DNA of 59,734 bases from a virus: positions 1 to 59,734 of the IMG/VR virus record IMGVR_UViG_3300032676_000325. One strand, given 5' to 3'. Under the pieces are notes generated by a model. The model was given only the letters and a program-made list of their open reading frames with translations, was not told the origin of the DNA and made no database searches. A program made the position numbers and the translations under genes. Position 1 is the stretch's first letter, and every line of letters begins with the position of its first letter. This document shows, piece after piece, positions 13,764 through 43,519 of the stretch.

Positions 13764-14177
13764 TTATGGTAGTACCACCGGAGGTGCTTTAAGGTATTCA
13801 GGATAGGCCTTGTCAAAATCACGCATGATGATACCAGCTACTTCATGTGCTTCATTTTCGATTGGGCTACCTGTGTGCCAACTGGTTGAATCTAATCGAT
13901 GTTCTTCACCTTGTACATAGTGTGTCATTTCGTGCGCTAAGGTACGTAGAATATCCACCGGTTGGCGATTGGCTACGACTACAGATATAGCTCTTTCTTC
14001 GTTGACAAAACGACCAAATGTTGGAATATTTGCATCTGGTATTGATTTAACTAATTTAATTTTTGGAATGTGATCTAAACCCAAATGCTTAACAGCAATA
14101 GGCAAGAAGTCACGTAGTGCATCAATTAAAGTTAATTGTTTAGATTCTTCCTGTTCAAACATTTCGAATAGGTTCAT
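13764..14177 (-). CDS. Zincin-type metalloprotease (HExxH)
   Basis: 137 aa. The motif TLAHEMTHYVQGEE at residues 79-92 contains HEMTH (H82, E83, H86), and ENEAHEVAG at 108-116 supplies a candidate third ligand, as in gluzincins. It begins MNLFEMFEQEE, which resembles the capsid-targeting-type N-termini of nearby genes. It is joined to the giant amidoligase gene by a TAATG overlap. A peptidase paired with a peptide-bond-forming ligase suggests peptide tag processing, or cell-wall or head-protein processing; this is inference. Confidence 0.75.
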   Translation of the reverse strand: MNLFEMFEQEESKQLTLIDALRDFLPIAVKHLGLDHIPKIKLVKSIPDANIPTFGRFVNEERAISVVVANRQPVDILRTLAHEMTHYVQGEEHRLDSTSWHTGSPIENEAHEVAGIIMRDFDKAYPEYLKAPPVVLP

Positions 14178-17100
14178 TATAGTAATCCTGCCAATTTACG
14201 TAAAAGGTTAATGCTTTCGTTTGTTTGATTTATAGCACGAATATCCAACGCACCAGTAGCTAATCCTAGATCTTGTTCATGTTCACGTGCTTTTCTTACA
14301 GCATAAACAACATCGCCTTGTCTTACGCGACTAACCACTTGACCAGTTGCGGGATTATAAATTTCCCATTCGCTGTGCTCTGGATCAACACCTTGCGGAG
14401 CCTCTTCATCACTCTCACTGCCCATAAGGTCATTGATATCCTCGTCATCATGCGATCGCATATCCTGTGAAATCTGCTCACGCTCGCGACGCATACGTTC
14501 ACGCTCATCAGCATCATCTGCAAAAGTATTAGTTGGTGCGTCATCGTCTGGGTTAATACCGTTAGCACGCAATTGACGTTTAAGTAAAATTCTAATATAA
14601 GCTAATTGTTGATCAGTTAGAGTAAGGTTACGGCCAGCATCTTCACGCGATAGATTTCTTAGCATATTGATAAGATGCATATCTGCGCTATAACTTAGAT
14701 CATTAGCAATGTAATCTTTCCAATGCTGTGGCAATGTGTCAAACACTGGATTTCTAGTAGTATCATCGTTATCTACAGCATCATTATTGCTACGACGGCG
14801 TAGTTCAGTCTCAATAGCTGTCTTGACAAATGCTACTTGATTACTATATAAGCCACTACCGATGCCTCTACCTGCTTCAATATGATCAAGAGCCTGGCGT
14901 AATTCTAAATCATGATGTTCACCTACACGCTCTAGCCATGATCTAGTACCTTCTGGTAAACTGTCAAATAGTTCTCTAGGACCAGTTTCACCAGCATCCT
15001 GTCTGCGACGCAGTTCATCATCAATGGCTCTAATCACAGCATCGCGTTGTTGTTGTGATTCTAAACTGGGATTGTGTTCACCTTGTTCAATTTGACGTCT
15101 AAAGTCAGCAATAACTTCTGTGCGTCTATTAGGTAATGTGTCAACCCAATTACGCCATTGTTGTGGAATAGCATGTACCGCACCACTACCCTGTGTAGCA
15201 GCAATGGCTACTAAGTCATTGGCATCAACATTCAATCCGTGTTCTCTTGCGAACAAGTCCACTGCTGCAAGTTTAGCCTGACGTGGAGTAACAGCATCAA
15301 CATATACAGAACTGCCACTTGCGGAACTAACTCTCCAACGTGTCATTTCATCAGCACTGTCACTACCATCATTGTTTGTTGCCTGTCTATTAGCAATAAT
15401 ATCATCAATTAGGTTAAGCAGATAATTGGTATCGTCGTCAGTTAGGCCAGCACCAGCATACGAACCTGATTGTAGTCTACGCTTAGTTTCACGTAGGTCA
15501 CTATCTAATGCTCGCGGAGCAATATCTCTTGCCCATCGTTGCCATGGAGTTGGCAATGTGTCTGGCATAGGACCCGCTGTGTTACGGGCATTCTGTCGGC
15601 GGCGTAGTTCGTTATCAATTTGTTGGATAATCCAAACATTAGCCGCTTGATCTAAACCATCCCTGCCGTCTTTAATTCGTTGTCTAACTTCGTTTGCTAT
15701 TGCTAAGGTAACATTAGGTAATGTATCTTCAACCCAACTCTTCCATCCTTCAGGTACTGAGTCTGGTATTTGTGTACTGGATTCTTTACGGAACTCAATT
15801 AGTTCATTAATGTAGTCTAATAGATACTGTGTACTCTCATCGTCTAGATAACTAAAATTCCCAGCTTTAAGTTCTTGTTCAATTCTGAACAGTTCATTTG
15901 CGTCTGCTGTTGGTGCTTTATCTTTGATCCAATTTATCCAACCACCAGTCAATGATTCTGGTGCTGGTTTAGTTGGTGATGGACCCGGAGGAGTACGTTC
16001 AAACGGCTCAGCCTTAAGTTTGCTGATACTGTCCTCACGCTTCATGCCTAACTGCTTACCACCTTTGATAATAGCATCTGTAACACTTTGCGCAAAGACC
16101 ATTTGCTTGCCGCCAGTACCGTCTTTGTTCATAACCCAGTACTGTTGTTCTTCACCTTTCTTCTCTTTACGAGCTGTCTGTGCCTGACGCACATTGCTGA
16201 CTAATTCGTCTTTGTTGATCTGCCCCATAGCATAGCGACTGAATAGGGATACTGAATTGTTAGGATCAGTCCAATCACCTTCATTTGGGCTTACTAATTT
16301 ATATAACTTCTTAGCGTATTCTTGTTTGTAAGCATTATCATCTGTGGCAATGCGTAAGGCCTGTGCTAGACGTAGAGCAGTACCAGTTAGTTTAGTTAAG
16401 TCTTGATCTAAATAGTCGCCACCTGGGCCACGGAACTCCACATACTTGTCTTTGGTATTGATACTTGTATACTTTTGTGTAACACCACTGTGTACTAATT
16501 TACTTGCAGCTGCACCAAGATGTTCTTTCATCTTGTTTAATAAGGCTGTGGCATTCTCTGGATTCTGTTGAATCTTTTCTTTAACAATCTTCATAGCACT
16601 CTTACAGTAGCTATTGTAAGTACGACCAAATTCTGATAGTACATGCTCGTCACCGAGGAACAGTGCTAATTTAACATAATCCAATGACTCAATAGTCATG
16701 TTAGGTACACTGATATTCATGTGTAGGCCAGTTGACTTATTAGTATAACAACCTTCTGACTTAGCCCATGCTTGAACTTTTTTCAGCATTTCAATACCAT
16801 CTTTAAGTGGCATTGCTGGACTGATAAACTCTAAACCCGCGTCATCGCTATCAGCATCAATACTACCATCTGGTTCAATAATGAAGTAACCTTGTTCTTG
16901 TTGTTGACTACGACTACCACTGTGGTAGTTGCTATAACCTCGTGCTGGGAATCCTGTGCCGTCTGTGAATGCTTCTGCTACTTGATCTACGTCAGCACTA
17001 CCTTCATCACGGTAGTTAGCATCATACATGTGTGGCCAATCTAAGTCCCAATAGCGATGTGCGTCCTGCATGTCATCAACACCAATTGACTCTAACCAAT

Positions 17101-17749
17101 CTGTTTGGCTGGCATAGCTGTCACGCCACTCATCTTGCAGTTCTTCTTCGGCAGCTTCGCGGGCACGTTCGTATTCGCGACTGTCTGCTTCTTCTATCTG
17201 TTCATCAATCCAGCGATCCATCCATAGTAATGTTAATTCACGTACACGTTCTTCTATAGCGGCATCATCGTCGGGTAATAACTCACCTAATTCTTTCTTA
17301 GCATCTGCGACAAAATCATCGTATTGATTGTTGCTGGCATCGCGAGCATCATCCTGTAGATTCTCGCGAGTTTTCTTAATTACTTCGTCGTAGTTTTCGT
17401 CTACGTAGTTCTGTGAGCCTTCATATTGCCATTCTAAATATTCGTTATATAATTGGCTACGGGCACGTTCGGCATCACTACGACCCATACTGCTGAATTC
17501 ACCATTACGGAAGAAGTTAATAATTTCGTCAATGTCGTAGGCGCTTTCGTTGGCGTCCCAGTCGTATTCCCATTCAGGCTCATCATCACCTGATGATGCA
17601 TTTGGCACGCACATTTCAAACTCAATACCCATTAGCATGCCTTCTGCTTCTGGACTATTGGCGAATTTTTCAAGGCTACTAGGACTCATTGATACTTCAT
17701 CAATGATCTCTGCTTCTCTTAAGGCTTGTTTAATTTGACTATAACGCAT
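14177..17749 (-). CDS. Large amidoligase-like protein with interleaved C-terminal repeats
   Basis: 1190 aa. Residues 38-450 match the COOH-NH2 amidoligase pattern (GCS/ATP-grasp-like fold): MGIEFEMC at 40-47, PDGSID at 293-298, LEFISPAMPLKDG at 306-318, TGLHMNISVP at 340-349 and KYVEFRGPGG at 435-444. A long acidic helical insert fills 60-280. The C-terminal half holds six related helical repeats (about 600-655, 661-719, 728-789, 861-917, 927-986, 1002-1063; core LPxxWxxW...LRRRQ) and three copies of a small alpha/beta unit (535-585, 803-851, 1127-1173). Amidoligases join carboxyl and amino groups, for example in peptide tags. The N-terminus MRYSQIKQALREAE resembles a capsid targeting peptide. 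A late octamer lies 6 bases before ATG. Confidence 0.75.
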   Translation of the reverse strand: MRYSQIKQALREAEIIDEVSMSPSSLEKFANSPEAEGMLMGIEFEMCVPNASSGDDEPEWEYDWDANESAYDIDEIINFFRNGEFSSMGRSDAERARSQLYNEYLEWQYEGSQNYVDENYDEVIKKTRENLQDDARDASNNQYDDFVADAKKELGELLPDDDAAIEERVRELTLLWMDRWIDEQIEEADSREYERAREAAEEELQDEWRDSYASQTDWLESIGVDDMQDAHRYWDLDWPHMYDANYRDEGSADVDQVAEAFTDGTGFPARGYSNYHSGSRSQQQEQGYFIIEPDGSIDADSDDAGLEFISPAMPLKDGIEMLKKVQAWAKSEGCYTNKSTGLHMNISVPNMTIESLDYVKLALFLGDEHVLSEFGRTYNSYCKSAMKIVKEKIQQNPENATALLNKMKEHLGAAASKLVHSGVTQKYTSINTKDKYVEFRGPGGDYLDQDLTKLTGTALRLAQALRIATDDNAYKQEYAKKLYKLVSPNEGDWTDPNNSVSLFSRYAMGQINKDELVSNVRQAQTARKEKKGEEQQYWVMNKDGTGGKQMVFAQSVTDAIIKGGKQLGMKREDSISKLKAEPFERTPPGPSPTKPAPESLTGGWINWIKDKAPTADANELFRIEQELKAGNFSYLDDESTQYLLDYINELIEFRKESSTQIPDSVPEGWKSWVEDTLPNVTLAIANEVRQRIKDGRDGLDQAANVWIIQQIDNELRRRQNARNTAGPMPDTLPTPWQRWARDIAPRALDSDLRETKRRLQSGSYAGAGLTDDDTNYLLNLIDDIIANRQATNNDGSDSADEMTRWRVSSASGSSVYVDAVTPRQAKLAAVDLFAREHGLNVDANDLVAIAATQGSGAVHAIPQQWRNWVDTLPNRRTEVIADFRRQIEQGEHNPSLESQQQRDAVIRAIDDELRRRQDAGETGPRELFDSLPEGTRSWLERVGEHHDLELRQALDHIEAGRGIGSGLYSNQVAFVKTAIETELRRRSNNDAVDNDDTTRNPVFDTLPQHWKDYIANDLSYSADMHLINMLRNLSREDAGRNLTLTDQQLAYIRILLKRQLRANGINPDDDAPTNTFADDADERERMRREREQISQDMRSHDDEDINDLMGSESDEEAPQGVDPEHSEWEIYNPATGQVVSRVRQGDVVYAVRKAREHEQDLGLATGALDIRAINQTNESINLLRKLAGLL
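14561..15952 (-). repeat. Six degenerate protein repeats in the amidoligase C-terminal half
   Basis: Units of about 57-62 residues share a core of LP-x-x-W-x-x-W, an acidic turn, a helix and a final ELRRRQ-type helix. They are diverged at DNA level, so the duplication is old. Two small W-x-V type units are inserted before and within the array and a third follows it. Confidence 0.65.
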
Positions 17750-17755
17750 ATTAAG

Positions 17756-17763
17756 TATTTATC
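17756..17763 (-). promoter_or_regulatory. T4-type late octamer 6 bases from the amidoligase ATG
   Basis: The minus strand reads GATAAATA, CTTAAT, ATG (17749). The predicted transcription start falls within one base of the start codon, and there is no Shine-Dalgarno. Confidence 0.5.
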
Positions 17764-17779
17764 GCTTGTTTTATCTTGC

Positions 17780-17890
17780 TCACTTTTGGCATCCCTCCAG
17801 GCCAGCAGCCGGCCACACCGTACCGTTACGAATAACGGGTCCTAAGGTGGTGTTCTTTACGACAGTATTACAGTAAAAACAACGGCCCAT
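17780..17890 (-). CDS. Possible small CxxC protein (36 aa)
   Basis: ATG 17888-17890 to TGA 17780-17782. The peptide starts MGRCFYCNTVV and ends AAGLEGCQK, with C4, C7 and C34. A CxxC pair this close to the start suggests a metal or redox site. The stretch is clearly more GC-rich than its surroundings. It begins inside the 32-aa membrane ORF in another frame and has only a weak ribosome site, so it may be spurious or the remnant of a longer zinc-ribbon gene. Confidence 0.35.
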   Translation of the reverse strand: MGRCFYCNTVVKNTTLGPVIRNGTVWPAAGLEGCQK

Positions 17891-17955
17891 GACCAAGCAA
17901 CAAGTCCAACTACTATGGTTAGGGGTAAGTTTTCAAATGTAAAATATTCTTTCAT
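17857..17955 (-). CDS. Small single-span membrane protein (32 aa)
   Basis: ATG 17953-17955 forms an ATGA overlap with the stop of the 158-aa gene; TAA is at 17857-17859. After MKEYFTFENLP the rest, LTIVVGLVAWSWAVVFTVILS, is one hydrophobic helix, so it should span the inner membrane. Tight coupling to the upstream gene supports translation. No function is known. Confidence 0.55.
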   Translation of the reverse strand: MKEYFTFENLPLTIVVGLVAWSWAVVFTVILS

Positions 17956-18428
17956 AGATATCCTACCCAAGCAGGACCTTTATATCCTTGTGGGTACGCT
18001 TGTAAGTGTTGTATAGTTCTATGCCAGCCTTCTGCTAAATCGTATCCCTGTGCTGTTTTGAATACAATAATAGGTTCTTTGCTTACACCCTGTGTTTGTA
18101 TCATTGCCTGTTGTGTAGCGTGACGTTCAGCATCTTTAGGAACACCGTAAGGGTTAGCACTTCCGCCTGCACGAAGTTTAATACGTTGTTGTGTTTCTGG
18201 TGTAAAAATGTCTAAGGTAATTGATAATGTTTCTAAACGCCATTGACGAACTGGATAATCTTTTTTAATACCCTGCATCCAATCTGCCAACTCTGCTGAA
18301 TCAGTGATGCCTTTGGCATTTTTATATAACCAATCATTTACTACATACGGTGGCCATGTAGGAAATTGTTGCTGTAGATAATCTTGCAGCCTGTTTCTTA
18401 ACTCAGTTATGAATTCTTTTGATCTCAT
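17952..18428 (-). CDS. Phage protein with ParB-like C-terminal motif and capsid-targeting-type N-terminus
   Basis: 158 aa. It begins MRSKEFITE, the peptide shared with several neighbours and similar to the T4 capsid targeting sequence; I-T-E would be a gp21-type cleavage site. The C-terminal part KEPIIVFKTAQGYDLAEGWH followed by a helix resembles ParB/sulfiredoxin-like folds (a strand, then EGxHR). No nuclease signature beyond that is visible. It is joined to the next genes by a TAATG junction upstream and ATGA downstream. It may be packed in the head; that rests on the N-terminal peptide only. Confidence 0.7.
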   Translation of the reverse strand: MRSKEFITELRNRLQDYLQQQFPTWPPYVVNDWLYKNAKGITDSAELADWMQGIKKDYPVRQWRLETLSITLDIFTPETQQRIKLRAGGSANPYGVPKDAERHATQQAMIQTQGVSKEPIIVFKTAQGYDLAEGWHRTIQHLQAYPQGYKGPAWVGYL

Positions 18429-19336
18429 TAGCAGTTCCAGCGACGGCGTGCTTTACAAATTGCCTTATCTGGAGTTTTGGCACAGCTGATATTGTGCATT
18501 TTCATCTGTCCCTTGCTACGTGAGCAGTAGCTCTTACGGCGTTTGCTGGCTTTGCTACCTTTTTTAAGTTTGCTAGGTTTAGTGGTAACGGCTGTTTTTA
18601 ATTTGCTACCAGGATGTTCACGACGATAAGCATTGACAGCTTTCTTACTCATGCCGTCAGTTTTGTCTTTCTTGTTGACCTTTTGCCAATCTTCATTCAC
18701 TGGTTCCTGTGTAACAGCAAATACATATAGTTCATCATCTGACAATGATTCTAAATCTTCCCAAACAACTTCACTATCAACATTATTCTTAGCGGCAATA
18801 TGCTCAACTATTGTTTCGATCATGTCAAACTCTAGATCTAGTTCTTCGTTTATACCTGCTTTTTTCTTTTTAGCAATAGCAATAGCAGCCTGTTGTGCAG
18901 CATTAGCGGCTTCATCTACAGTAGATTCGCTGAGATCAAATTTTGCGTCGTTGACCCAACTTGTTACATTAGCAGCATATTGTGCTAAGATTTGCGGATC
19001 AACATTTTGTGCTAAGTAATCTTCAAATTCTAAGTCGCCTAATCCTAAAGTATCTTCGTAATAATCATTCCACGCATGACCGATTTCACTGTCCCAACGA
19101 TCTAACCATTCATATCCATCATCATCACCTATTCTTGCAATTCGCCATACACCCTTGGCAACTTTTCTTGCATTTTTTGTTGTTTGAGATTGGATATCTT
19201 CTTCTACGCTTTCATTTGGCACACAGTTATTAACACGAACGCCACCTTTGATCTTAGTGCCTTCTTTGTGTTTACCTTTCCAGCATTTTGGATCTAGACG
19301 TTGTTTTACTTCAGCTAAAAATTCAATTGCTCTCAT
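18428..19336 (-). CDS. Internal head protein-like, with basic Cys-rich C-terminal module
   Basis: 302 aa. It begins MRAIEFLAE (L-A-E possible cleavage site). Next comes a short Cys module CWKGKHKEGTKIKGGVRVNN with a paired NNC (residues 18-40), found widely in marine T4-like phages. The middle is acidic and helical. The last 60 residues are very basic with conserved Cys (KRRKSYCSRSKGQMKM, SCAKTP, ARRRWNC), a module I recall from phage proteins annotated as DUF6321. The basic tail could bind DNA. Modular build and targeting peptide suggest a capsid-internal protein; the function is unproved. Confidence 0.7.
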   Translation of the reverse strand: MRAIEFLAEVKQRLDPKCWKGKHKEGTKIKGGVRVNNCVPNESVEEDIQSQTTKNARKVAKGVWRIARIGDDDGYEWLDRWDSEIGHAWNDYYEDTLGLGDLEFEDYLAQNVDPQILAQYAANVTSWVNDAKFDLSESTVDEAANAAQQAAIAIAKKKKAGINEELDLEFDMIETIVEHIAAKNNVDSEVVWEDLESLSDDELYVFAVTQEPVNEDWQKVNKKDKTDGMSKKAVNAYRREHPGSKLKTAVTTKPSKLKKGSKASKRRKSYCSRSKGQMKMHNISCAKTPDKAICKARRRWNC

Positions 19337-19527
19337 TTCTTTTTCCCCGATTTCATATTAGCACACCAATGTGCCATGCGTTGCTTTTCGCCTGTACTAT
19401 GTGCGGCTATACTACGTAATTTACTCACTGACTGTTTACAGTTAACACCACTGCGTTTGGCTAGACCTTTACGTCCTGGTTTCTTGCCATCAGCAAAATT
19501 TTCTATGATAAATTCGTTAGCTCGCAT
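19333..19527 (-). CDS. Small basic protein with capsid-targeting-type N-terminus
   Basis: 64 aa. It begins MRANEFIIE (I-I-E possible protease site). The rest is a basic Cys module with KPGRKGLAKRSGVNCKQSV and GEKQRMAHWCANMKSGKKK, a unit common in T4-like phage genomes. Net charge is strongly positive, which would suit DNA binding inside a capsid. It overlaps the next gene by ATGA. An octamer GGTAAATA lies nine bases before the ATG. Confidence 0.7.
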   Translation of the reverse strand: MRANEFIIENFADGKKPGRKGLAKRSGVNCKQSVSKLRSIAAHSTGEKQRMAHWCANMKSGKKK

Positions 19528-19536
19528 AATTTATTC

Positions 19537-19544
19537 TATTTACC
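19537..19544 (-). promoter_or_regulatory. T4-type late octamer near the ATG of the 64-aa gene
   Basis: The minus strand reads GGTAAATA, nine bases, ATG. The leader would be about 3-4 bases, too short for a Shine-Dalgarno. Confidence 0.4.
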
Positions 19545-19546
19545 AT

Positions 19547-19891
19547 TTAGTTTAATTCTATAACTGGCATATTTAATCTTCTAGCGCCAGGCTCCTCTCG
19601 CATAACAGTGTTGATAGATAATACTTTATTATTGTTTCTGTCGGAAAAATACATACATCCAAGATCGATCCATGTTTGGTTATCACGTAGTCGAAATTTA
19701 CCTTGGTCTAATACAGTTTCTAATTTATCATTCATATTAGGTGATACTACCATGTCTAGCATTCTAATAACATAGTGCCATGGAATTCCACGTTCTTGCG
19801 CACGATCTTGTACATGCTCACTGACTCTCAAAATTAGATTGCCTAATTTGCGTCTTATTAAAGATTCTATTGCAAATTCTTTTACTCTCAT
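19547..19891 (-). CDS. Hypothetical protein with capsid-targeting-type N-terminus
   Basis: 114 aa. It begins MRVKEFAIE, matching the shared N-terminal peptide. The remainder, with SEHVQDRAQERGIPWHYV, then a helix, FRLRDNQTW and strands ending VLSINTVMR, has the helix-then-beta layout and AxxRGI motif of small DUF4258/RelE-like folds. It is therefore a possible mRNA- or tRNA-interfering protein, but catalytic residues cannot be assigned. It overlaps the nucleotidyltransferase-like gene by ATGA. Confidence 0.6.
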   Translation of the reverse strand: MRVKEFAIESLIRRKLGNLILRVSEHVQDRAQERGIPWHYVIRMLDMVVSPNMNDKLETVLDQGKFRLRDNQTWIDLGCMYFSDRNNNKVLSINTVMREEPGARRLNMPVIELN

Positions 19892-20607
19892 ACTATAAAA
19901 TTCCTAAACCAATCAGCACTGCCTTCACTTACCTGTTTCGACTCGGGTAGTTTAACACCTTCTTTACCTAGTGTTTCACGTGCATCTGCTACTAATTCTT
20001 CGTAATCTGAACGAGGTTTAATTTTGTGTATGATTGTATCTACACTGGCTAAATCTTGTGCTGTACCAGTAAATAGTATCTCTGCAATTTCTTTAGGATT
20101 CCTAGTAATAGTTTCGTTGGTTTCTCTATTAACTAATCCATTTTTATACGACCATTTAAGTCCGCGTGCTTTGGCAATACTGGCCAGCAGTACATGTCGA
20201 TGCATACCCTTATACGAGCTACCCTCTGGACTTCCCGTCATGCTAAATTTCTGCCAATCTGGCTCACCAAACATAAAGTCTGTTTGTACATACCCATTCT
20301 TAGGGTTACCTAGGATAGGAGTTTTTACATGTACATTATCTCCCGACTTCTTAATATCAGATTGATTTATACCACGGGATAAGAGCTGTTGAACTAATAC
20401 ATCTTTGGAAATTTTATTAATATCAACTGCTAGGTCTAGGTCACCTGATGTTTCTTTATATCCGGTTGATCCTAGCATGTTGTCTACTAGATTAAGACCG
20501 GTAATTTTTTCTAACCATTGTACAGTAGGGACAACATCATCTCGTCTAATGCGTTGAGTAGCTGATGTATTATCTGCGTTCTTGAAAACGTTACCACCCA
20601 TATGCAT
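19888..20607 (-). CDS. Nucleotidyltransferase-superfamily protein
   Basis: 239 aa from ATG 20607; ATG at 20601 (MGGNVFKNADN) is an equally good start. The pol-beta-type signature is clear: LGSTGYKETSGDLDLAVD at residues 45-62 holds the GS helix turn and the DxD pair (D56, D58). A third acidic residue is probably in VQTDFMFG. Family members transfer nucleotides to proteins, RNA or antibiotics; the phage substrate is unknown. It overlaps the HAD gene upstream by 17 bp and the next gene by ATGA. Its neighbours carry capsid-targeting-type peptides but this one does not. Confidence 0.75.
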   Translation of the reverse strand: MHMGGNVFKNADNTSATQRIRRDDVVPTVQWLEKITGLNLVDNMLGSTGYKETSGDLDLAVDINKISKDVLVQQLLSRGINQSDIKKSGDNVHVKTPILGNPKNGYVQTDFMFGEPDWQKFSMTGSPEGSSYKGMHRHVLLASIAKARGLKWSYKNGLVNRETNETITRNPKEIAEILFTGTAQDLASVDTIIHKIKPRSDYEELVADARETLGKEGVKLPESKQVSEGSADWFRNFIV

Positions 20608-21130
20608 GCTCCAATCCTTGTACTACTGTATTTAAGCTATCTTCGTCAGCTTGGTATTTGATACCAATACCACCTTGAGAGATCCATTTGTTAATATTAG
20701 TGCCTCGATCATCAATTAAGATATTTGGGCTACCGTCTGCATTTACTGCATATTTCTCTTTGGTGCTGGTAATGACGATATCAGCTGGTTGTGGACTTAG
20801 TTGTTTACTAATCCATACACGTTTCCAATGTTCACTGTTTTTAAAATCACCACGTAGGGGACTTGAGCAAATACAGTATTCCGGCACATAGCTTAAGACT
20901 AATTGTACTAGACTATCTGCTGTGTCAAATTTAGGTAAACGTGCAAAGAAATCAGTGCCTACCATTTTGTTCAGAGTAGGGTCTTGCTTTGCTGGAGGAA
21001 TATCTCGGTATTTTCCGCTTGGAATACCTGCTAATTTGGCATATTCTGCAAAAAAATCAGCCAAAACACCGTCTAAATCTAGATAAATTTTAGTCTCTGG
21101 TGTTGCTTTAATTAACTCATTTGCTCTCAT
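20591..21130 (-). CDS. HAD-family phosphatase, 5'(3')-nucleotidase-like
   Basis: 179 aa. HAD motif I is IYLDLDGVLADFF (D18 nucleophile, D20). Motif II is CICSSPLRGD, and a lysine in TSTKEKYA precedes motif IV LIDDRGTNINKW. The size and motif order match 5'(3')-deoxyribonucleotidases, which remove phosphate from nucleotides. It begins MRANELIKATPE, a variant of the shared targeting-type peptide, which is unusual on an enzyme. A GATAAATA octamer ends 6 bases before the ATG and no ribosome site is seen. Confidence 0.8.
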   Translation of the reverse strand: MRANELIKATPETKIYLDLDGVLADFFAEYAKLAGIPSGKYRDIPPAKQDPTLNKMVGTDFFARLPKFDTADSLVQLVLSYVPEYCICSSPLRGDFKNSEHWKRVWISKQLSPQPADIVITSTKEKYAVNADGSPNILIDDRGTNINKWISQGGIGIKYQADEDSLNTVVQGLEHAYGW

Positions 21131-21136
21131 AATTTA

Positions 21137-21144
21137 TATTTATC
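21137..21144 (-). promoter_or_regulatory. T4-type late octamer 6 bases from the HAD gene ATG
   Basis: The minus strand reads GATAAATA, TAAATT, ATG (21130). This predicts a leaderless or near-leaderless mRNA. It is back-to-back with the plus-strand octamer at 21158. Confidence 0.5.
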
Positions 21145-21157
21145 CGTATATATGCTT

Positions 21158-21165
21158 ACTAAATA
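21158..21165 (+). promoter_or_regulatory. T4-type late octamer 5 bases from the desaturase ATG
   Basis: The plus strand reads ACTAAATA, CCGTT, ATG (21171). T4 spacing puts the transcription start on the A of ATG. Confidence 0.5.
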
Positions 21166-21170
21166 CCGTT

Positions 21171-22343
21171 ATGTTACACTCTTCTGAACTAAAAGTCAAT
21201 CTATCCGATTACGAGAATTTCTTAATATGGTTTAATCAATCTAACTACGTAACTGCTAAGTCATTAGATGAATGTACTCGATGGGAAATACGAGAAGCAT
21301 TATCTTATTATTTCTTTAATTTAAGTATTAGCAGTGAATTAATGTCAATAATAGATTCTATTAGATTTGATAATAGTTTAGGATGGGCTACATTGTCATT
21401 GGTTGACGAAGCAAAAATACAATATAAACTACGTCAGTTAGGGTATGAATTAACCTGTGTTGACCAATGGCCTACTACTGTAAATGAATTTAAACTTATA
21501 ATTGAAGATTACAGTCCCTCAAAACTTATAAAAAATAAAATACAAATAGTTCCTATAGTTGCACAAAAGATTGTAAGTAAACTGTCACAGACATTTGTGG
21601 TTAAATTTGGTTATTTAATCTTTTGTCTAGTAATGTTAGGATATTATCATGATTGGATAATGTTAGCACAAGGAGCACTGTTTGGATATCTGATGTGGGC
21701 TTGGGTTGAATTTGCTGATCATGATTATATGGAACATAGATATGTAGTACCAAAAAACAAAGTAATAAAACATTTTGTTGAGTATCTTTGTTATATTTTT
21801 ATGCCAGCGACCTATGCTAATAAAATAGAATCTATTAGATTACACACATATCATCACATCTATTGGAAGGGTGAAAAAGACAAATATACGCAAAGTATTA
21901 ATGATATTCCTGTGCCGGGGTTTTTTAATCCCCCATTGTTTACTAAACCAAATGCAAAAAATATGCAACGATTACTTAATGAATATCCCGAGTTTCCATA
22001 TATTGTTAAATATTTTAGAGAAATTGAAATATTAATATCGTTAATTGTTATAGCAACCTTGGGATTTAAATTTTATTTCTTTTTCTTTTTAATACCTATA
22101 TTAATTCGGCCACCTCTGCAAGCACAACATGATTTTTGGCTTACTAATCTAGGTGAACGTGATCATTATCTATTATTTCCGCTGGCATTAAATCAAGCAT
22201 GGCATGTTACGCATCACAATAATTTTAGAATAGTACCTAAAACTTGGAGCGAAGTGTTTAACGGACCATGGTGGGTTAAGTATGTTAATCCTCAATACTA
22301 CTTTGGTCGCCTTTTCTTCAAACTCAGATACAGAGACAAATAA
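21171..22343 (+). CDS. Fatty acid desaturase-like protein with an extra N-terminal module
   Basis: 390 aa. Residues 140-390 form a membrane desaturase-like domain with hydrophobic helices near 145-180 and 285-312 and histidine clusters HDYMEH (184-189), HTYHH (225-229) and HVTHH (345-349). Residues 1-115 are a soluble module with RWEIREALSYYF (37-48), DEAKIQYKLRQLGYELTC (79-96) and WPTT (100-103). That pattern recurs at the C-termini of the three sulfotransferase-like genes at 40043, 42429 and 44832. The fusion is unusual. The gene stands alone on the plus strand and ends in a strong terminator. Substrate could be an acyl chain or a related lipid. Confidence 0.85.
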   Translation: MLHSSELKVNLSDYENFLIWFNQSNYVTAKSLDECTRWEIREALSYYFFNLSISSELMSIIDSIRFDNSLGWATLSLVDEAKIQYKLRQLGYELTCVDQWPTTVNEFKLIIEDYSPSKLIKNKIQIVPIVAQKIVSKLSQTFVVKFGYLIFCLVMLGYYHDWIMLAQGALFGYLMWAWVEFADHDYMEHRYVVPKNKVIKHFVEYLCYIFMPATYANKIESIRLHTYHHIYWKGEKDKYTQSINDIPVPGFFNPPLFTKPNAKNMQRLLNEYPEFPYIVKYFREIEILISLIVIATLGFKFYFFFFLIPILIRPPLQAQHDFWLTNLGERDHYLLFPLALNQAWHVTHHNNFRIVPKTWSEVFNGPWWVKYVNPQYYFGRLFFKLRYRDK

Positions 22344-22365
22344 AAACCGCCCTTTCGAGCGGTTT
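22344..22365. terminator. Bidirectional hairpin terminator
   Basis: AAACCGC, 8-base loop, GCGGTTT, directly after the desaturase stop and 7 bases from the convergent adhesin stop. A-rich and T-rich flanks allow use on both strands. Confidence 0.8.
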
Positions 22366-22371
22366 ATTAAA

Positions 22372-25359: not shown

Positions 25360-25362
25360 TTA

Positions 25363-26010
25363 TTATTCCTTGCTTCCGCAAATAGCATTATAGTCAGCCA
25401 TATTTAATGTATGACCGTCTGCGCTTAGTGCTGTAATTCTTTCTGTAACATGGTGTAAATCTAAATCTGATTCTGCATCTTCACGTGCATATTCTAATAG
25501 TCGAATAAACAAAGGAACATCAACTGTAATAGTGTCTACTGGAGAATCTTCTGCACTTTCACTCCATTGGCCACTACCGCTATGCCACTCATCATGATCT
25601 GAACTACCCCATGCACTATTAGGTCCTGACCATTGGTCTTCTGATAGTTTACTTGCCTGTTGGTGCACTTGTGTGCTGTATTCTTTACCATGTTTATTAC
25701 GTAATTGATTAATAAATCTATGATATTCGTGTGCTTTATTTGGATTTGTTTTAGCTGCACCTATTAATTGTCTTGCTGTAATTACATCTGGCATATGACT
25801 GTCTTCTGTGGCAATTAGGTTACTTACAGCCATGTCTTCATTTGCATGTTTAAAATATTGTACTTGACGTTCACGCTTTTCTGCACCAGCACGAGTAGGA
25901 TACTTGCCTAAGTTCTTACCAGTCTTTTTGCTTTTTAATTCGTAACCACCCTTGACTTTGACAATGTGCTCGGATAAGTCTGGTTGGCTAAAGAATTCAG
26001 TTAATAACAT
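25363..26010 (-). CDS. Modular phage protein with capsid-targeting-type N-terminus
   Basis: 215 aa. It begins MLLTEFFSQPDLSE, similar to T4 Alt (xELFxE) and ending in L-S-E. Residues 15-52 hold the module KVKGGYELKSKKTGKNLGKY plus RAGAEKRERQVQYFKH, common in T4-like marine phages and basic. A Trp/Ser/Asp-rich linker (about 125-150) follows. The C-terminal helical module VDVPLFIRLLEYAREDAESD then GHTLNMADYNAI is also a recurrent phage unit. It probably sits in the virion; function unknown. A CATAAATA octamer lies at 26041-26048. Confidence 0.7.
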   Translation of the reverse strand: MLLTEFFSQPDLSEHIVKVKGGYELKSKKTGKNLGKYPTRAGAEKRERQVQYFKHANEDMAVSNLIATEDSHMPDVITARQLIGAAKTNPNKAHEYHRFINQLRNKHGKEYSTQVHQQASKLSEDQWSGPNSAWGSSDHDEWHSGSGQWSESAEDSPVDTITVDVPLFIRLLEYAREDAESDLDLHHVTERITALSADGHTLNMADYNAICGSKE

Positions 26011-26040
26011 AATAATAATCCATAATAATACTGTATATGA

Positions 26041-26048
26041 TATTTATG
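26041..26048 (-). promoter_or_regulatory. T4-type late octamer
   Basis: The minus strand reads CATAAATA about 30 bases before the ATG at 26010. It faces away from the sigma70 promoter at 26074. Confidence 0.45.
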
Positions 26049-26073
26049 CTATTTTAAATCAAATAGAAAAAGG

Positions 26074-26103
26074 TTGACAGCTTTAGATCAAAGAATGTAT
26101 AAT
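26074..26103 (+). promoter_or_regulatory. Consensus sigma70 promoter
   Basis: TTGACA at 26074-26079 and TATAAT at 26098-26103, both perfect, with an 18-base spacer and TG just before the -10. This should be a strong host-polymerase promoter. The palindrome TGAGTAAACTCA at 26125-26136, just upstream of the ATG, could be an operator. Confidence 0.85.
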
Positions 26104-26137
26104 AGCTATGTCTTTAATCAACCTATGAGTAAACTCA

Positions 26138-26584
26138 ATGACACAAGTAGCAGAACTATTAAATGAAATTATCGGTGATCCAATTAACGGTCCATATGAA
26201 GGTGAGGACTATTGGATTGATGAAGATGGCACAATTCAAATTGCTGAAAACAATGCTATTCTTGCAGGCACTATTCTACGCAAGACTAATAACAGTGGCC
26301 AATTTGACACAAAGTTAGTTAAGATTGGTCAACGTGGCGATAGTATTATTTTAGGGTTTGATACATTACTTGATGCTGATCCGGTATATAAAGTACAAAT
26401 TGGATATATGCGTGATACACTTGCTGAAGTTAAGAAAGACAATGCTGGCAAGTTTTGTTTATATTTAAATAAGAAACGGGCAACACGTATGTTTAGTAAA
26501 CTTACTGCTGCTAAAGCGTTTCTAAGGAAATTAGACAAAGATCTACAATCAGATGGTGTAGAACCAGAAGCAATAGATGAATAA
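26138..26584 (+). CDS. Hypothetical early protein
   Basis: 148 aa, acidic, no recognised family. The N-terminal half looks beta-rich (YEGEDYWIDEDGTIQIAENN, ILAGTILRK, DSIILGFDTLL) and the C-terminal half helical and basic (LYLNKKRATRMFSKLTAAKA). It is an isolated plus-strand gene inside a long minus-strand run, with a consensus sigma70 promoter and its own terminator. That arrangement is typical of an early, highly expressed phage gene acting on the host. Its function cannot be read from the sequence. Confidence 0.8.
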   Translation: MTQVAELLNEIIGDPINGPYEGEDYWIDEDGTIQIAENNAILAGTILRKTNNSGQFDTKLVKIGQRGDSIILGFDTLLDADPVYKVQIGYMRDTLAEVKKDNAGKFCLYLNKKRATRMFSKLTAAKAFLRKLDKDLQSDGVEPEAIDE

Positions 26585-26586
26585 AC

Positions 26587-26611
26587 AAAAAGGGCCCTAA
26601 GGCCCTTTTTT
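26587..26611. terminator. Bidirectional rho-independent terminator
   Basis: A run of A, then AGGGCC-CTAA-GGCCCT, then a run of T, just past the 26138 gene stop and at the end of the convergent 26610 gene. It is symmetrical, so it works both ways. Confidence 0.9.
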
Positions 26612-29153
26612 ATTGTTGCGGAGTTGTTCCAGTAGGGGTTTGCTGTGAATTTTTAGCCTGTTGCGCTAATGTTTTAAATTGATTAGCAATTTTAGGATCT
26701 TGTGATGCCGCTTTAACTACATTCATAGTTGGAGCAAGAGCTTTCATATCCATAGCATTAGTAGCAGTGCCTTGGCTTGCATCATCAATAGCTTTGGCCA
26801 ACTGTGGAGCCGCAGTAGGAGTATTAGTAGCAGATTTTAATGCGTTAGTTGCTTGTAATGCTGCCTGTTGTGCTTGCGGATTAGTCGGATTAGCACCTTG
26901 TCCAGGAGCCGCAGTACCTTGAGGTTGATTAGCACCAAATTCTTTAATCTGCATTCTGCCTTTGATTTTATTCGAATATGCAGATGCCTTTTTATGAAAT
27001 TCTGCACTTAAACGATCAAATGCTGCTTGTTTTTCTTCGTTAGATGCATTACTTGCCGCAATCTTTTCCATGCCTCTTCTAAATGCTGAGATAACAGGAA
27101 CAGTTTTGCTTTCACCTAGTCGACTGCGATTAGCCGCACGTGCTGCCATGCTACTTACGCCTGCTTGTGCTCGCTCTTTACTTTGAGCCTGTGCTTTAGC
27201 TGGGTTTTCGTTTTTAACAGTTAAGATATCTGAACTGAATTTAACCTTACTAGGGTTAATGCTGTCAATGTAATGTTGAATAGCTGGTGATTTTTTATTA
27301 GCATCAACTAGATCTTTCAACATAAACGGTTTGCCAGTTGCGGCTACTACCATATTAGTAATAACTTCTGGTGCTACGTCTGTATGTCCTTGATGAATAA
27401 GTTCTTGGGCAGCTTTTAGTACAGCACCTTCAACTGGATCAGCACTTTCAATACCTTCTGGAATATGTACTTTCTTGTGTACACCTTTAGCTTTACGATC
27501 CTTAATAGCTTTTTTAGTTTGCCAATTAGCAACATCTAAATCATGCTTAGTTGATCTTGGATCCGTTCTAGTTCTGCTTGGACCTGTACCGCCAGTTAAT
27601 GGATCCATCTGTCCACTTTTGTCCCAATTAGTATCAGTCGGATATGAACTCATACCTTCATCCATATCACGATCAGTGTAATCTAAATCATATTGTGGTA
27701 TTTTACGTGAGCTACCAGCAGTGTCGCTTATTCCACTACCAGTCTTAATACCAGGTCCTGGAACCTTATCATTGGGATTAGAAAAATATTTTCCACCTTT
27801 AACCTTAGTAGTTGATCCATGTGATGAATCCCAACCTTTACGGCGAACAGTTGTAACGTTACCTTTCTTTTCTACATCCATTTCACCGTGTGGTCCAGTG
27901 TATGTATGACGGTTTTCGTAGATAGCACGATAAGCTAGATTCTTACCATAGTTCTGCCCTATGTAAGCCATTGCTTCACCTTTAGTAGCAAATACCGTAT
28001 CAAGTACTGGCTGTTTAGTGTCTAAACTAACTACTTGGTAACCTTTAGCTTCTGGTTCTTTTTTAGCATACGGAGCATCAAGTTTTTCTTGACGAGCTTG
28101 ATCATATTCCCAATCTGGATCAGGTTCATGACTGCTACGTTCTTCAGGACCACTTTCCCAACCTTCATTTAATGATTTATAACCGTCAGCATAACCTTTG
28201 CGTTCTTGTGCAGAAATACATTCTTTAGAATTGTTCGGTTTACCTGCTCGAGCATCGGCACAACCTTTTTTATGTCCTGTATTATAATCAGCATCTTTTG
28301 CAGCATCATCTATGCCTTCACTGAATTTGCCTGGGAAACGAGTCCAATCGTAGTATTGTTCGATTTCTTTACTTGATGTAAATTTGTGTACTTTTTTGCC
28401 TGTTTTAGGATCTACTAAGTAGATTAAGTTTGATACACGCTCACCTTCTCTATTTGCTGGGTGTGCCGCATATACTTTGAATTCTAAACCAGATTGTTTG
28501 TTTTTAACAGTACCCATGTAGGTATTGTCATTGTCTTCATCTAGATCATGTGCCCATTTTCTAGCATCCGGATCACGATCATACATTTCTGCTTCTTCCG
28601 CATCACTACCAGCATAATCATTAAATTCAACATCACTGGCATTAAAACTATGTTTGCCACCATTGTAAAGTTGAACTACAACAAAACGCCCATCGCGACC
28701 TAATTCGGTAACTACACCAGTTTCACCTTGTCCTTCTACAGGTCCAGTGATGATAACATCGTCGCCTACGTTTAATTCTTGTGAGCTATCTTCTTTAACT
28801 GTGTTGTAACGTTTACTCGGTTTGTCTGGAGATGTGTATTCGCGTGATGGTCTAGCACCTTTGCGACTTGGACGTTTTTCTTCTACACCTAGGTCGTCTT
28901 CATTAAAGTTAGCAAATGCTTCTGCCAATTCCCATTCTAGGCTTTTGTTTTCAGAAACTTTTTGCAGGCCTTTAAGCATGTTTGGCTCAGCTGATTCTTC
29001 ACAACCGCCACCTACTCCTTGACCTGGTTTAGGGGGATTAGGATTTTTACCTGCCCAATAACCTTTAAATTTTGGACCTTCAGGATTATTTGCGGCTTTT
29101 TCCATGCTATCACCTTTGTTTTCAAAGATGCTTAGTAGTTTTTTCATGTCCAT
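26610..29153 (-). CDS. Large modular, partly disordered phage protein
   Basis: 847 aa from ATG 29153. An in-frame start at 29276 exists but would overlap the 124-aa gene by over 120 bp, whereas 29153 sits 1 bp after that stop behind AAAGAG. It begins MDMKKLLSIFENKG (I-F-E, targeting-like). Then come a KFKGYWAGKNPNPPKPGQG plus GGGCEES module, a KOW/SH3-like strand set (LNVGDDVIITGPV, GETGVVTELG), a GHKKGCADARAG unit, and Pro/Gln/Ala-rich tails. The composition is low-complexity and charged. It is probably a virion or scaffold-associated protein with shuffled modules. No enzyme motif is seen. Confidence 0.7.
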   Translation of the reverse strand: MDMKKLLSIFENKGDSMEKAANNPEGPKFKGYWAGKNPNPPKPGQGVGGGCEESAEPNMLKGLQKVSENKSLEWELAEAFANFNEDDLGVEEKRPSRKGARPSREYTSPDKPSKRYNTVKEDSSQELNVGDDVIITGPVEGQGETGVVTELGRDGRFVVVQLYNGGKHSFNASDVEFNDYAGSDAEEAEMYDRDPDARKWAHDLDEDNDNTYMGTVKNKQSGLEFKVYAAHPANREGERVSNLIYLVDPKTGKKVHKFTSSKEIEQYYDWTRFPGKFSEGIDDAAKDADYNTGHKKGCADARAGKPNNSKECISAQERKGYADGYKSLNEGWESGPEERSSHEPDPDWEYDQARQEKLDAPYAKKEPEAKGYQVVSLDTKQPVLDTVFATKGEAMAYIGQNYGKNLAYRAIYENRHTYTGPHGEMDVEKKGNVTTVRRKGWDSSHGSTTKVKGGKYFSNPNDKVPGPGIKTGSGISDTAGSSRKIPQYDLDYTDRDMDEGMSSYPTDTNWDKSGQMDPLTGGTGPSRTRTDPRSTKHDLDVANWQTKKAIKDRKAKGVHKKVHIPEGIESADPVEGAVLKAAQELIHQGHTDVAPEVITNMVVAATGKPFMLKDLVDANKKSPAIQHYIDSINPSKVKFSSDILTVKNENPAKAQAQSKERAQAGVSSMAARAANRSRLGESKTVPVISAFRRGMEKIAASNASNEEKQAAFDRLSAEFHKKASAYSNKIKGRMQIKEFGANQPQGTAAPGQGANPTNPQAQQAALQATNALKSATNTPTAAPQLAKAIDDASQGTATNAMDMKALAPTMNVVKAASQDPKIANQFKTLAQQAKNSQQTPTGTTPQQ

Positions 29154-29154
29154 A

Positions 29155-29529
29155 TTATTTTCTCTTTTTCTTTGCTGATTTAGTTGCTTGTTTGTAAAAT
29201 ATGCTTTGTCCAAACCCATCGCCACCACCCATGCTGGTAGCAATACTGCCACTTGATGTTCCACCGCAACTTGCATCTTCTGACACTGTAGGTTGTATAC
29301 CCTGTTCGTGTTGTGAAGTAATATGTTGCATTACAGCGGTTAACATACCTTTAGCCTGTGCTACTTTTTCCTGACACCATTCAGGCAAATTTTCGTTAGT
29401 TTTGATCTCTCTACACAATTCGGTCATAGTACGAATAATAGTATGTAGATTGTCTTTAACTGAACCTGCTTCATCGTCATATTCTTCATGGCTGTATTCT
29501 GATTCGTTAATAAATTCTGATGGCTTCAT
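29155..29529 (-). CDS. Conserved phage protein with capsid-targeting-type N-terminus
   Basis: 124 aa. It begins MKPSEFINE (I-N-E), then EYDDEAGSVKDNLHTIIRTM and LPEWCQEKVAQAKGMLTAV, a helical unit shared by many marine T4-like phages, and ends with a Gly/Ser linker and a basic KSAKKKRK tail. The acidic start, helical core and basic tail suit a small internal head or core protein. It has an AAGGAAAT ribosome site and an AATAAATA octamer at 29551. Confidence 0.75.
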   Translation of the reverse strand: MKPSEFINESEYSHEEYDDEAGSVKDNLHTIIRTMTELCREIKTNENLPEWCQEKVAQAKGMLTAVMQHITSQHEQGIQPTVSEDASCGGTSSGSIATSMGGGDGFGQSIFYKQATKSAKKKRK

Positions 29530-29550
29530 TGGGATTTCCTTAATATAATG

Positions 29551-29558
29551 TATTTATT
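29551..29558 (-). promoter_or_regulatory. T4-type late octamer
   Basis: The minus strand reads AATAAATA, giving a leader of about 16 bases with AAGGAAAT before ATG 29529. It overlaps the stop region of the upstream gene. Confidence 0.45.
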
Positions 29559-29895
29559 AAATTGAGAAAGTTATTTCATTGTCCTGAACAGTAAACACAT
29601 TGCAAGTAGAAACAACCCCTTGTGCGGCGTTAGCTATTACAAAGTTCTCGAATCTAATAAAGGCCTGTTCGGGCAATTTTAAAATAGGATCTAATCTTAA
29701 AGAATGTTTATCACGTTCGATATTGACCCATAAGTCTTCTCTAATATAGATACTATCTTCCCAACGCCAAGTGCGTTCAGTAAGTAGATCTTTATCTAGA
29801 TAAATGCGATAACTTGGATTATTAAATTTTGGATTATGAATAGCCCAAGGTGGTCTTACACAATGCACATCGACTTGAATATTAATCAAACTCAT
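29557..29895 (-). CDS. Small beta-sandwich-like hypothetical protein
   Basis: 112 aa, predicted mostly beta strands (INIQVDVHCVRPP, YRIYLDKDLLTERTWRW, IYIREDLWVNIER) without membrane or signal segments. The pattern recalls small Ig- or carbohydrate-binding-like domains coded by T4-like phages, and the 146-aa gene at 30876 has the same style. It abuts the nucleotidyltransferase gene upstream. A virion decoration or accessory role is possible but not shown. Confidence 0.65.
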   Translation of the reverse strand: MSLINIQVDVHCVRPPWAIHNPKFNNPSYRIYLDKDLLTERTWRWEDSIYIREDLWVNIERDKHSLRLDPILKLPEQAFIRFENFVIANAAQGVVSTCNVFTVQDNEITFSI

Positions 29896-30846
29896 TTAAA
29901 TTAAACGTAATGCTCGAGCGTTTTTTGTTGGTGTATCTGGATGAACATCTACTGTAAGTGCATTTGACCAACGTGGATCTTTGGCTTCTTTTTTATTTTT
30001 GGGGATATAACCACTGGCTTCATTTACGTTAGGAGCCCAAAACTTATGCGGACCAAATAACTTATCAGCATGACCAATCTTCATTTTATCCATAGTAGAA
30101 GCCATCGGACTACGGTTCCACTTAGTAGCATCCTTAACTTCGTAATGCCATTTGCCACTCATTGTTTGTTTTAGACCCGCTTTAATTGCAGCTGATCTTT
30201 GTGTATTAGTATCGATGTTATAAAAATAATACCCTGGCTTAGGATCTTGCACGGTATCTTCATTTAGATCTTCTAATAACATACCTTTGCGTACTGCTTG
30301 ATATAATGCAGGTGCTAATTTACCCGCTCCTGTTGCTTGTACAAATGCCTGTTCGTCACCCCTAGCGGCTGCTTCTCGAGCATCACTTGCGCTTACTCCA
30401 GCAACACCATCTGCATCGGGATCACGATCACCACTTGATACAAAATTGATACTGTCAAATTGATAATCTTTACCATTGTAATCAGTTAGTAGTTTCTTAA
30501 AACTATCTAAGCGATCACTGCCTGCTACAAAAGTAATTGAACGATATCCTTTGCTATGTAACCATTGAGCAACTTGTATAATAGTTTTTAGTTGTGTATT
30601 ATAGACAATATGGCTTGCTTGTTGTGGAAATAATGCTTTAAGGAATTTAACTTTTGTAGCGTAATCTAACGGATTTTTCTTACTATCTTGAGTTTGACTA
30701 ACAAAAATAAAATAATCGCCACCTTGTGAGGTCTTAGCTACTGTGTCGATTAACTGCGCATGACCAACTGTAGGAGGATTCATACGGCCAAAACAAAAGC
30801 TCGCATGCTTGGGTGTAGTTGTTTCAAATAATTCAGTTAAAAACAT
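29896..30846 (-). CDS. Cytidylyltransferase/NadR-like nucleotidyltransferase with targeting-type N-terminus
   Basis: 316 aa. Residues 13-180 match the adenylyl/cytidylyltransferase fold: HASFCFGRMNPPTVGHAQLI (14-33, with the (H/T)xGH motif as TVGH), then FVSQTQDSKKNPLD, and FVAGSDRLDSFK, with a final SASDAREAA corresponding to the ISSTxIR-type motif. Members make NAD, CoA or CDP-sugars. It begins MFLTELFETT, very like the start of T4 Alt (xxxTELFDE). The C-terminal third is a separate phage-type extension. Substrate is not determined. Confidence 0.8.
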   Translation of the reverse strand: MFLTELFETTTPKHASFCFGRMNPPTVGHAQLIDTVAKTSQGGDYFIFVSQTQDSKKNPLDYATKVKFLKALFPQQASHIVYNTQLKTIIQVAQWLHSKGYRSITFVAGSDRLDSFKKLLTDYNGKDYQFDSINFVSSGDRDPDADGVAGVSASDAREAAARGDEQAFVQATGAGKLAPALYQAVRKGMLLEDLNEDTVQDPKPGYYFYNIDTNTQRSAAIKAGLKQTMSGKWHYEVKDATKWNRSPMASTMDKMKIGHADKLFGPHKFWAPNVNEASGYIPKNKKEAKDPRWSNALTVDVHPDTPTKNARALRLI

Positions 30847-41676: not shown

Positions 41677-42205
41677 GTAAATCTCCTAACTCGTAAGGTA
41701 TAAATCCTTCTGCACGTTCTGGGTGCCACACTACTCCCCATATTGGTAGTTGACTATGTTTAAACGCTTCAACTGTATTGTCGTGTGAGCAAGTAGCCCA
41801 GGGCATCAAATCTCTACCCAATACTGCAATACTGTTGGTATGGAAACTGTTTACATAATCAGTCATGTCATCAAATTCAACCCTGTGTGCAGTATTTTGA
41901 TGTCCTTCTATAGGCGCATTAACTCCGCCATGTAGTTCGTTAATAAAAAATGCTCCATGACAAACGCCTAAAATTGGCACACCTTTTAGTAAAGCAATAT
42001 TGTAGTATATGGTTTCTGTATGAGTTCGATTAGGAGTACTATCTCCACCCGATAAGATTAACATATCAAAATCCGTTTCAGTATTTGATACATTAGCTAT
42101 TGGGACTAACTTATGACTATTAAGTAGCCCATGCCAACCTTGCTCTAGGCAATCGTAGGTAATGTTGTTGTGAACTATTTCACGCTGTGATATAGCTATT
42201 TTCAT
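41669..42205 (-). CDS. Class I glutamine amidotransferase-like protein
   Basis: 178 aa, one GATase1 domain. The triad is intact: C82 in ILGVCHGAFF, H161 and E163 in WGVVWHPERAEG. The oxyanion region ISGGDSTPNRT (50-60) is also present. It would release ammonia from glutamine or cleave a gamma-glutamyl bond. A synthase partner is not adjacent; the sulfotransferase-like and hexapeptide acyltransferase genes are candidates for a shared sugar pathway, by inference. It overlaps both neighbours. Confidence 0.85.
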   Translation of the reverse strand: MKIAISQREIVHNNITYDCLEQGWHGLLNSHKLVPIANVSNTETDFDMLILSGGDSTPNRTHTETIYYNIALLKGVPILGVCHGAFFINELHGGVNAPIEGHQNTAHRVEFDDMTDYVNSFHTNSIAVLGRDLMPWATCSHDNTVEAFKHSQLPIWGVVWHPERAEGFIPYELGDLLG

Positions 42206-43457: not shown

Positions 43458-43473
43458 TAAGTCCTCGTCAATA

Positions 43474-43497: not shown

Positions 43498-43519
43498 CTG
43501 CTTATAAAATTAATTATGC

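Follow-up and report, generated by a model that had tools for sequence, protein, structure and literature searches.

Genes beginning with a shared peptide

The DNA analysed here (hereafter, the window) is the IMG/VR record IMGVR_UViG_3300032676_000325, a fragment of 59,734 bases from an uncultivated freshwater giant phage. Between positions 13,764 and 30,846 it carries genes whose products differ in their bodies and begin with variants of one short peptide, the tag, which an earlier note on this DNA had likened to the capsid targeting sequence (CTS) of T4 head proteins. The N-termini quoted there are all present, on the minus strand, at the first ATG of well-packed open reading frames (ORFs). 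The genes of the region, with lengths in amino acids (aa), are:

14154..14177, minus strand: tag MNLFEMFE of gene 13764-14177, 137 aa, HExxH metalloprotease-like
14177..17749, minus strand: amidoligase-like protein of 1190 aa with the leader MRYSQIKQALRE (phrog_2443, amidoligase, E=1e-7)
18402..18428, minus strand: tag MRSKEFITE of gene 17952-18428, 158 aa
19310..19336, minus strand: tag MRAIEFLAE of gene 18428-19336, 302 aa, basic Cys modules, with a C-terminal DUF6321 (PF19846, E=5e-9)
19501..19527, minus strand: tag MRANEFIIE of gene 19333-19527, 64 aa, a basic NFADGKKPGRKGLAKRSGVNC module
19865..19891, minus strand: tag MRVKEFAIE of gene 19547-19891, 114 aa
19888..20607, minus strand: nucleotidyltransferase (NTase)-fold protein, leader missing (MHMGGNVF); the exception among the listed genes
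21107..21130, minus strand: tag-like MRANELIK of gene 20591-21130, HAD / 5'-deoxynucleotidase (phrog_2643, E=5e-20); weak member
25969..26010, minus strand: tag-like MLLTEFFSQPDLSE of gene 25363-26010, 215 aa, basic module
29121..29153, minus strand: tag-like MDMKKLLSIFE of gene 26610-29153, 847 aa, low-complexity; looser member
29503..29529, minus strand: tag MKPSEFINE of gene 29155-29529, 124 aa
30823..30846, minus strand: tag MFLTELFE (Alt-like form) of gene 29896-30846, cytidylyltransferase / NMNAT-like (phrog_3041, E=2e-55)

The DNA polymerase of the window has as its nearest named phages Sinorhizobium phage Phosso (51.5%) and Agrobacterium phage Atu_ph07 (46.7%), followed by RaK2-like jumbo phages; megablast of the tagged region against named phages gave no match. 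IMG/VR holds many close relatives of the window phage, and four were read whole: G001 (329 kb), G005 (355 kb), G006 (364 kb) and G008 (189 kb). In G001, the portal, the protease and the major capsid protein belong to T4-type head families, and the clade is therefore one of T4-superfamily jumbo phages.

Excess over chance and specificity of the tag

In its strict form (^M[RK]x{1,3}E[FL][ILAVF]xE) the tag begins five of the 74 window genes, against a mean of 0.01 for shuffled N-termini, and is found at none of 314 internal Met residues; a looser form begins nine of the 74, against 0.17 expected. The sharing of the peptide described in the earlier note is thereby confirmed. Two loose-form genes of the window, at 26138 and 57838, were dropped as chance members. 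Across the window and its relatives, where the form ^M[RK]xx[ED][FLI][ILAVF]xE was used, 164 of 4231 distinct N-termini match (shuffled mean 0.69, maximum 3), as against 2 of 21,126 internal methionines. The consensus is M-R/K-A/I-x-E-F-I/L-x-E, and the next residue is most often A, S, N, K or G. The tagged bodies form 32 clusters, even by single linkage, which over-joins them via common small modules. As the note had claimed, the bodies in the window differ (no similarity by blastp at E<0.01) and peptide codons vary between copies, with AGA, CGA or AAG and GAA or GAG all in use. In all four of the large relatives read whole, tagged genes are clustered beyond chance (permutation p between 0.0145 and <0.0005), and in a syntenic block of G001, at 206-218 kb, about nine of them are almost consecutive.

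Conservation is concentrated in the tag. Among 67 distinct ortholog N-termini of the cytidylyltransferase, L6, F7 and E8 reach 3.3-3.7 bits and the linker at residues 9-14 only 1.0-2.0 bits; [LIFMV]xE is present in 65 of the 67 and ends at residue 8 in 61. For gene 29155-29529 (14 distinct N-termini) the corresponding values are 3.2-3.6 bits for E5, F6, I7 and E9 and 1.5-1.8 bits for the next residues. In the 1190-aa protein, [LIFMV]xE at residues 11-12 is kept in all 12 scorable ortholog N-termini.

As a control we took 31 window families to which ordinary non-virion functions could be assigned, either by eye or from profiles; they include the polymerase, clamp, clamp loader, ClpA/B, DnaJ, PhoH, MazG, methyltransferases and desaturases. 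The strict tag is found in none of their 542 distinct homologs and the loose form in two. Of 316 proteins in ten candidate cargo families, by comparison, 65 carry the strict and 146 the loose form. Equal frequency of the motif among non-virion genes, which the earlier note had named as a refutation, was thus not found. An internal control is provided by lysozymes:

37611..38225, minus strand: GH19-type lysozyme (named by eye), standalone, untagged

Of the 38 standalone GH19-type lysozymes, this copy included, none has a strict tag and four have chance matches to the loose form (MSFTFDFTKE etc.); of the 21 embedded in larger proteins, 13 have a strict tag, two a loose tag and the others a related start. 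This suggests that the lysozyme domains in tagged proteins are packaged lysozymes. An untagged standalone GH19-type lysozyme gene and the lysozyme domain of a tagged larger protein occur together within contigs (L106, L119, L124 and L135).

Prohead protease and predicted cleavage sites in head proteins

The earlier note had proposed to look for a gp21-like prohead protease elsewhere in the genome. Among the relatives, a gp21-type S77 protease is encoded by 11 of 15, including every one of at least 188 kb, and it is also encoded by Atu_ph07, Phosso, S-CREM2 and S-SZBM1. In T4, the cut by gp21 falls after L/I-x-E (PMC9026906). Of the [LI]xE sites in eight capsid proteins (four from the window clade and those of Atu_ph07, Phosso and two cyanophages), 32 fall within residues 1-70 and 5 in the 2734 residues beyond, and eleven scaffold proteins have 14-32 sites each against 6-10 expected from composition (shuffled). 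Head proteins therefore carry such marks at the positions expected for cutting by T4 gp21, and the tags end in the same way; this distribution of sites strongly fits a clade protease that would cut at L/I-x-E. A start close to the MNLFEMFE of the window (MNLLEMFND, MNLFEILE or MNIFELFD) is seen in the relatives on a small gene between those for the portal and the prohead-core protein.

In the tagged proteins, [LI]xE lies at residues 7-14. The gp21 site that most copies were said to keep is present in the core set and absent from MRANELIK, which has no [LI]xE, and from the window NTase; MLLTEFF reads FFS and not FFE, and in MRVKEFAIE the candidate cut site reads AIE.

Tagged homologs in virions of cultured phages

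S-SZBM1 and S-CREM2 are T4-like cyanophages with virion proteomes. The cytidylyltransferase gp140 of S-SZBM1 was detected by mass spectrometry (MS) in CsCl-purified virions (PMC9146016), and the virion proteins of S-CREM2 detected by MS include the S-adenosylmethionine hydrolase gp6, gp13, the kinase gp14 and the cytidylyltransferase gp154 (PMC10665884); the authors leave undecided whether the enzymes are packaged or contaminants. gp140, a homolog of the window cytidylyltransferase, begins MRFRQFIIEA, almost the window consensus. The S-CREM2 leaders, MKDFDSFLEE (gp6), MKDLHSFLTE (gp13), MKRFDAFLTE (gp14) and MKNFSSFLTEA (gp154), align without gaps with MKTYQEFIAE, the T4 form as quoted in the earlier note. 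The presence of the tag on enzymes detected in virions argues for packaging over contamination. The Cas9-like gp12 of S-CREM2 (L316:7704-10313), which is in the virion proteome list, has a tag-like RFASFMAEA some 18 residues away from the annotated start, which may be wrong.

For Atu_ph07, MS placed 29 proteins of coding sequences (CDS) 31-76 in the virion, a count given for the cluster as a whole (PMC6102473). Inside this cluster lie gp53-gp62 (L315, 39484-49507), ten genes in tandem that are annotated as hypothetical and mostly encode proteins of about 250-270 aa. They have M[RK]WxxLxE leaders (MRWEQLTE...), and in several a motif resembling YRGM(R/K), which recalls ADP-ribosyltransferases, can be made out by eye; these proteins are possibly comparable to Alt. 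Much of the window is syntenic with another cluster of MS-detected proteins, CDS 284-329.

A probable capsid targeting sequence with mixed cargo

We consider it likely, with a probability of about 0.85, that the shared peptide is an N-terminal CTS of the T4 kind and that a mixed cargo is packaged, cut and ejected. The proposal of the earlier note is well supported by indirect evidence, namely the specificity of the motif, the protease in the clade, the [LI]xE sites in head proteins and the tagged homologs in virions; the part of it that has weakened concerns a few of the listed members. Packaging and cleavage in the window phage are predicted from these features, and ejection would be one step further.

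Through its leader, a short segment in which a hydrophobic pair precedes [LI]xE, a newly made protein would dock on the core or scaffold of the prohead, and the head shell would close around it; a gp21-type S77 protease would then cut after [LI]xE and release the body inside the head, from which the freed body would be ejected with the DNA. Because any body could be attached to such a leader, the cargo of the window phage clade could be mixed. It would comprise the metalloprotease, the cytidylyltransferase/NMNAT-like enzyme, the amidoligase-like protein and small basic Cys proteins with a possible affinity for packaged DNA, and, in relatives, NTase-fold proteins and lysozymes; the relatives' tagged block also holds a protein with a GNAT domain. 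By analogy with T4 Alt and Ip1-Ip3, a plausible role for the cargo would be to act against the nucleotide pools, NAD and defence of the host.

Several observations weigh against CTS-directed packaging. The window phage is uncultivated and known here from its genes alone, and the 59.7-kb window, being a fragment, yielded no gp21-type protease (PF03420). The HAD protein and the window NTase are without a recognizable cut site or leader, and no enrichment of the T4-type late promoter [TG]ATAAATA was found upstream of tagged genes. In S-CREM2, a scan with the regular expression fixed beforehand (^M[RK].{1,5}[ED][FLIM][ILAVF].E) gave no match, and the cyanophage form, MKxFxxFLTE, has no acidic residue before F. 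A core expression chosen after seeing the data gave p=0.012 for the S-CREM2 proteome, and in the S-SZBM1 hold-out only one of the four ORFs that matched encodes a virion protein (p=0.45); given a post hoc value in the one phage and a failed hold-out in the other, proteome-wide enrichment is therefore not established.

The alternative that survives best, although unlikely, is that the peptide docks proteins elsewhere in the virion (tail, baseplate or portal vertex) or serves only as a handle in core assembly, so that nothing is ejected. Such docking would suit gp137 of S-CREM2, homologous to the C-terminal basic module of gene 18428-19336, which adjoins the terminase genes and was found in virions by MS without this tag. 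However, the leader ends in a prohead-protease site found in the capsid and scaffold proteins of the clade, the small gene that occupies the prohead-core position begins with the same peptide, and the T4 parallel is with internal head proteins.

We regard as highly improbable that the genes are paralogs or mosaic fusions, in which one N-terminal piece was inherited by recombination and has no targeting function. While the tagged genes lie side by side and modules move from one protein to another, the codons differ between copies, the hydrophobic and E residues are held as their neighbours drift (67 orthologs), and the same enzyme bears different tag forms in different phages, including MKKFSAFLTEA in cyanophages; with the residues held and tags and codons varied, neutral hitch-hiking is no explanation. 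Chance or a translational artefact, by which favoured early codons or the choice of start site would make N-termini look alike, explains matches to loose patterns (26138 and 57838 in the window, or MISLTELAAEK of an apparent iron-sulfur carrier in G001) but has almost no probability for the strict set, for which it is refuted by an excess of >200 times over shuffled N-termini and by 0 of 542 non-virion homologs called with the same gene finder.

Beyond the window clade, we lean slightly towards a broader picture of a CTS-borne cargo, in which T4-superfamily phages other than coliphages (freshwater jumbo phages, marine cyanophages) place a removable head-address peptide on any useful domain (proteases, NTases, NMNAT-like enzymes, amidoligases, lysozymes, ADP-ribosyltransferase-like proteins), which would give a large, fast-changing payload for counter-defence and takeover, predictable from the tag alone.

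Proteins carried in phage heads and injected are mostly unknown, and are prime candidates for counter-defence. A tag that marks head cargo would make packaged proteins predictable from sequence and open genomes to a search for them; here it yields >100 cargo candidates in uncultivated phages. It would also account for the cytidylyltransferases that recur in cyanophage virion proteomes, for which the authors could not rule out contamination. In T4, Ip1-Ip3 block GmrSD restriction (PMC12373910).

Relation to known systems

In the T4 CTS, targeting depends mainly on residues 4 and 7 and processing on residues 8 and 10, and the Alt propeptide has 7 residues (PMC9026906). The tagged set resembles T4 IPI-IPIII in its leader of about ten N-terminal residues with a hydrophobic pair and then [LI]xE, in non-homologous bodies with the leader alone in common, in small basic proteins among the cargo, and in the S77 protease of the clade; it differs in that the window-clade leader, MR[A/I]x[E/D]FIxE, is usually one residue shorter, and in that the bodies are many more and larger, with several enzymes and multidomain fusions. 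Alt, a packaged ADP-ribosyltransferase with a 7-residue propeptide, is likewise an enzyme cargo, and MFLTELFE, MNLFEMFE and MLLTEFF resemble the Alt form quoted in the earlier note, although the enzymes differ from Alt. The cyanophage virion cytidylyltransferase/NMNAT (S-SZBM1 gp140, S-CREM2 gp154) is a homologous enzyme with a tagged N-terminus in another host and phage clade; the accessible parts of the two virion papers make no mention of a targeting peptide.

Polyvalent proteins are multidomain enzymes predicted to be injected by phages, with shuffled domains (Iyer et al. 2017, PMC5512222). Unlike these, the window set has a T4-type leader and most of its bodies are short single proteins; disparate domains in one polypeptide are seen only in relatives (HAD with lysozyme, 531 aa; zincin with lysozyme, 477 aa) and possibly in the 1190-aa protein of the window. 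SPN3US-type giant phages have ejection and head proteins with N-terminal propeptides mostly of >100 residues, cut by the prohead protease (PMC5694885). Such long propeptides, as in SPN3US/phiKZ-type phages, were not seen in the window clade, with its [LI]xE close to the N-terminus and its T4-like portal, protease and capsid protein. Judged by its sequence features, the window set belongs to the T4 CTS kind. What is new is the reach into an uncultivated freshwater jumbo clade and, by similar criteria, into cyanophages, together with the large, swappable, enzyme-rich cargo and the slightly different consensus.

Individual members

Two or three of the members listed in the earlier note are weak. 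Its HAD gene is one, since no [LI]xE follows the peptide; close orthologs read MRAxELIRAT, and one distant ortholog is truly tagged (MRAREFIIE). The NTase fold, which matches the DNA polymerase X family (E=1e-5), has relatives that begin M...LxE and continue with GGNVF (e.g. MKLYE|GGN), so that the leader appears lost in the window copy. In gene 25363-26010 (MLLTEFF), FFS takes the place of FFE and LSE is found at residues 12-14; its relatives begin MLLTEFFET, MLVKDLFEY and MLLAEFFEN. The start of the 847-aa gene was set at 29153 (MDMKKLLSIFE), a downstream choice over the longest-ORF start, and relatives begin MDMKKLLESI or MDFKKILAKIDLFE. By its leader, the amidoligase-like gene at 14177-17749 should be added to the set; its G001 ortholog matches PF12224 (E=9e-15).

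Among the remaining members, the metalloprotease has orthologs with the same body behind other tags (MRAKEFIIE, MNIIDLFEE, MLALELFEE, MKIQELLIE). In its AlphaFold model, residues 1-10 are a loose helix (predicted local distance difference test score, pLDDT, of ~50) and the body is ordered, in blocks mostly of pLDDT 86-98; its nearest folds by Foldseek, with weak E-values, are IrrE/PprI, CapP, Wss1 and selecase. Gene 17952-18428 had been labelled ParB-like, a label that found no PHROG or Pfam match. Tags vary among the homologs of gene 18428-19336 (MKITEILTE, MKAKEFIIE, MRADEFITE), and gene 19547-19891 has one further distinct ortholog only, 69% identical and tagged MRIEELLTE. The cytidylyltransferases of Syn9, P-SSM2 and S-RIM2 also carry a leader, in the cyanophage form; those of RaK2 and Paride are without such a tag.

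The NFADGKKPGRKGLAKRSGVNC module of gene 19333-19527 was found at 93 loci, behind many tags and bodies. Small basic modules of this kind (NFADGKKPGRKGLAKRSGVNC, KQRLDPKCWKGKHKEGTKIKGGVRVNNC and KVKGGYELKSKKTGKNLGKYPTRAGAEKRERQVQYFKH, in the window genes 19333-19527, 18428-19336 and 25363-26010) recur in this way, and possibly bind DNA inside the head.

Other features

In G001, many GIY-YIG/HNH-like genes resembling homing endonucleases are scattered through the head and tail region. At 39393-45740 the window has at least five P-loop/sulfotransferase-like genes in a row, related in design, the last of them on the opposite strand. Four separate genes, at 9952-10689, 21171-22343, 56100-56867 and 57838-58590, encode proteins like membrane fatty-acid desaturases.

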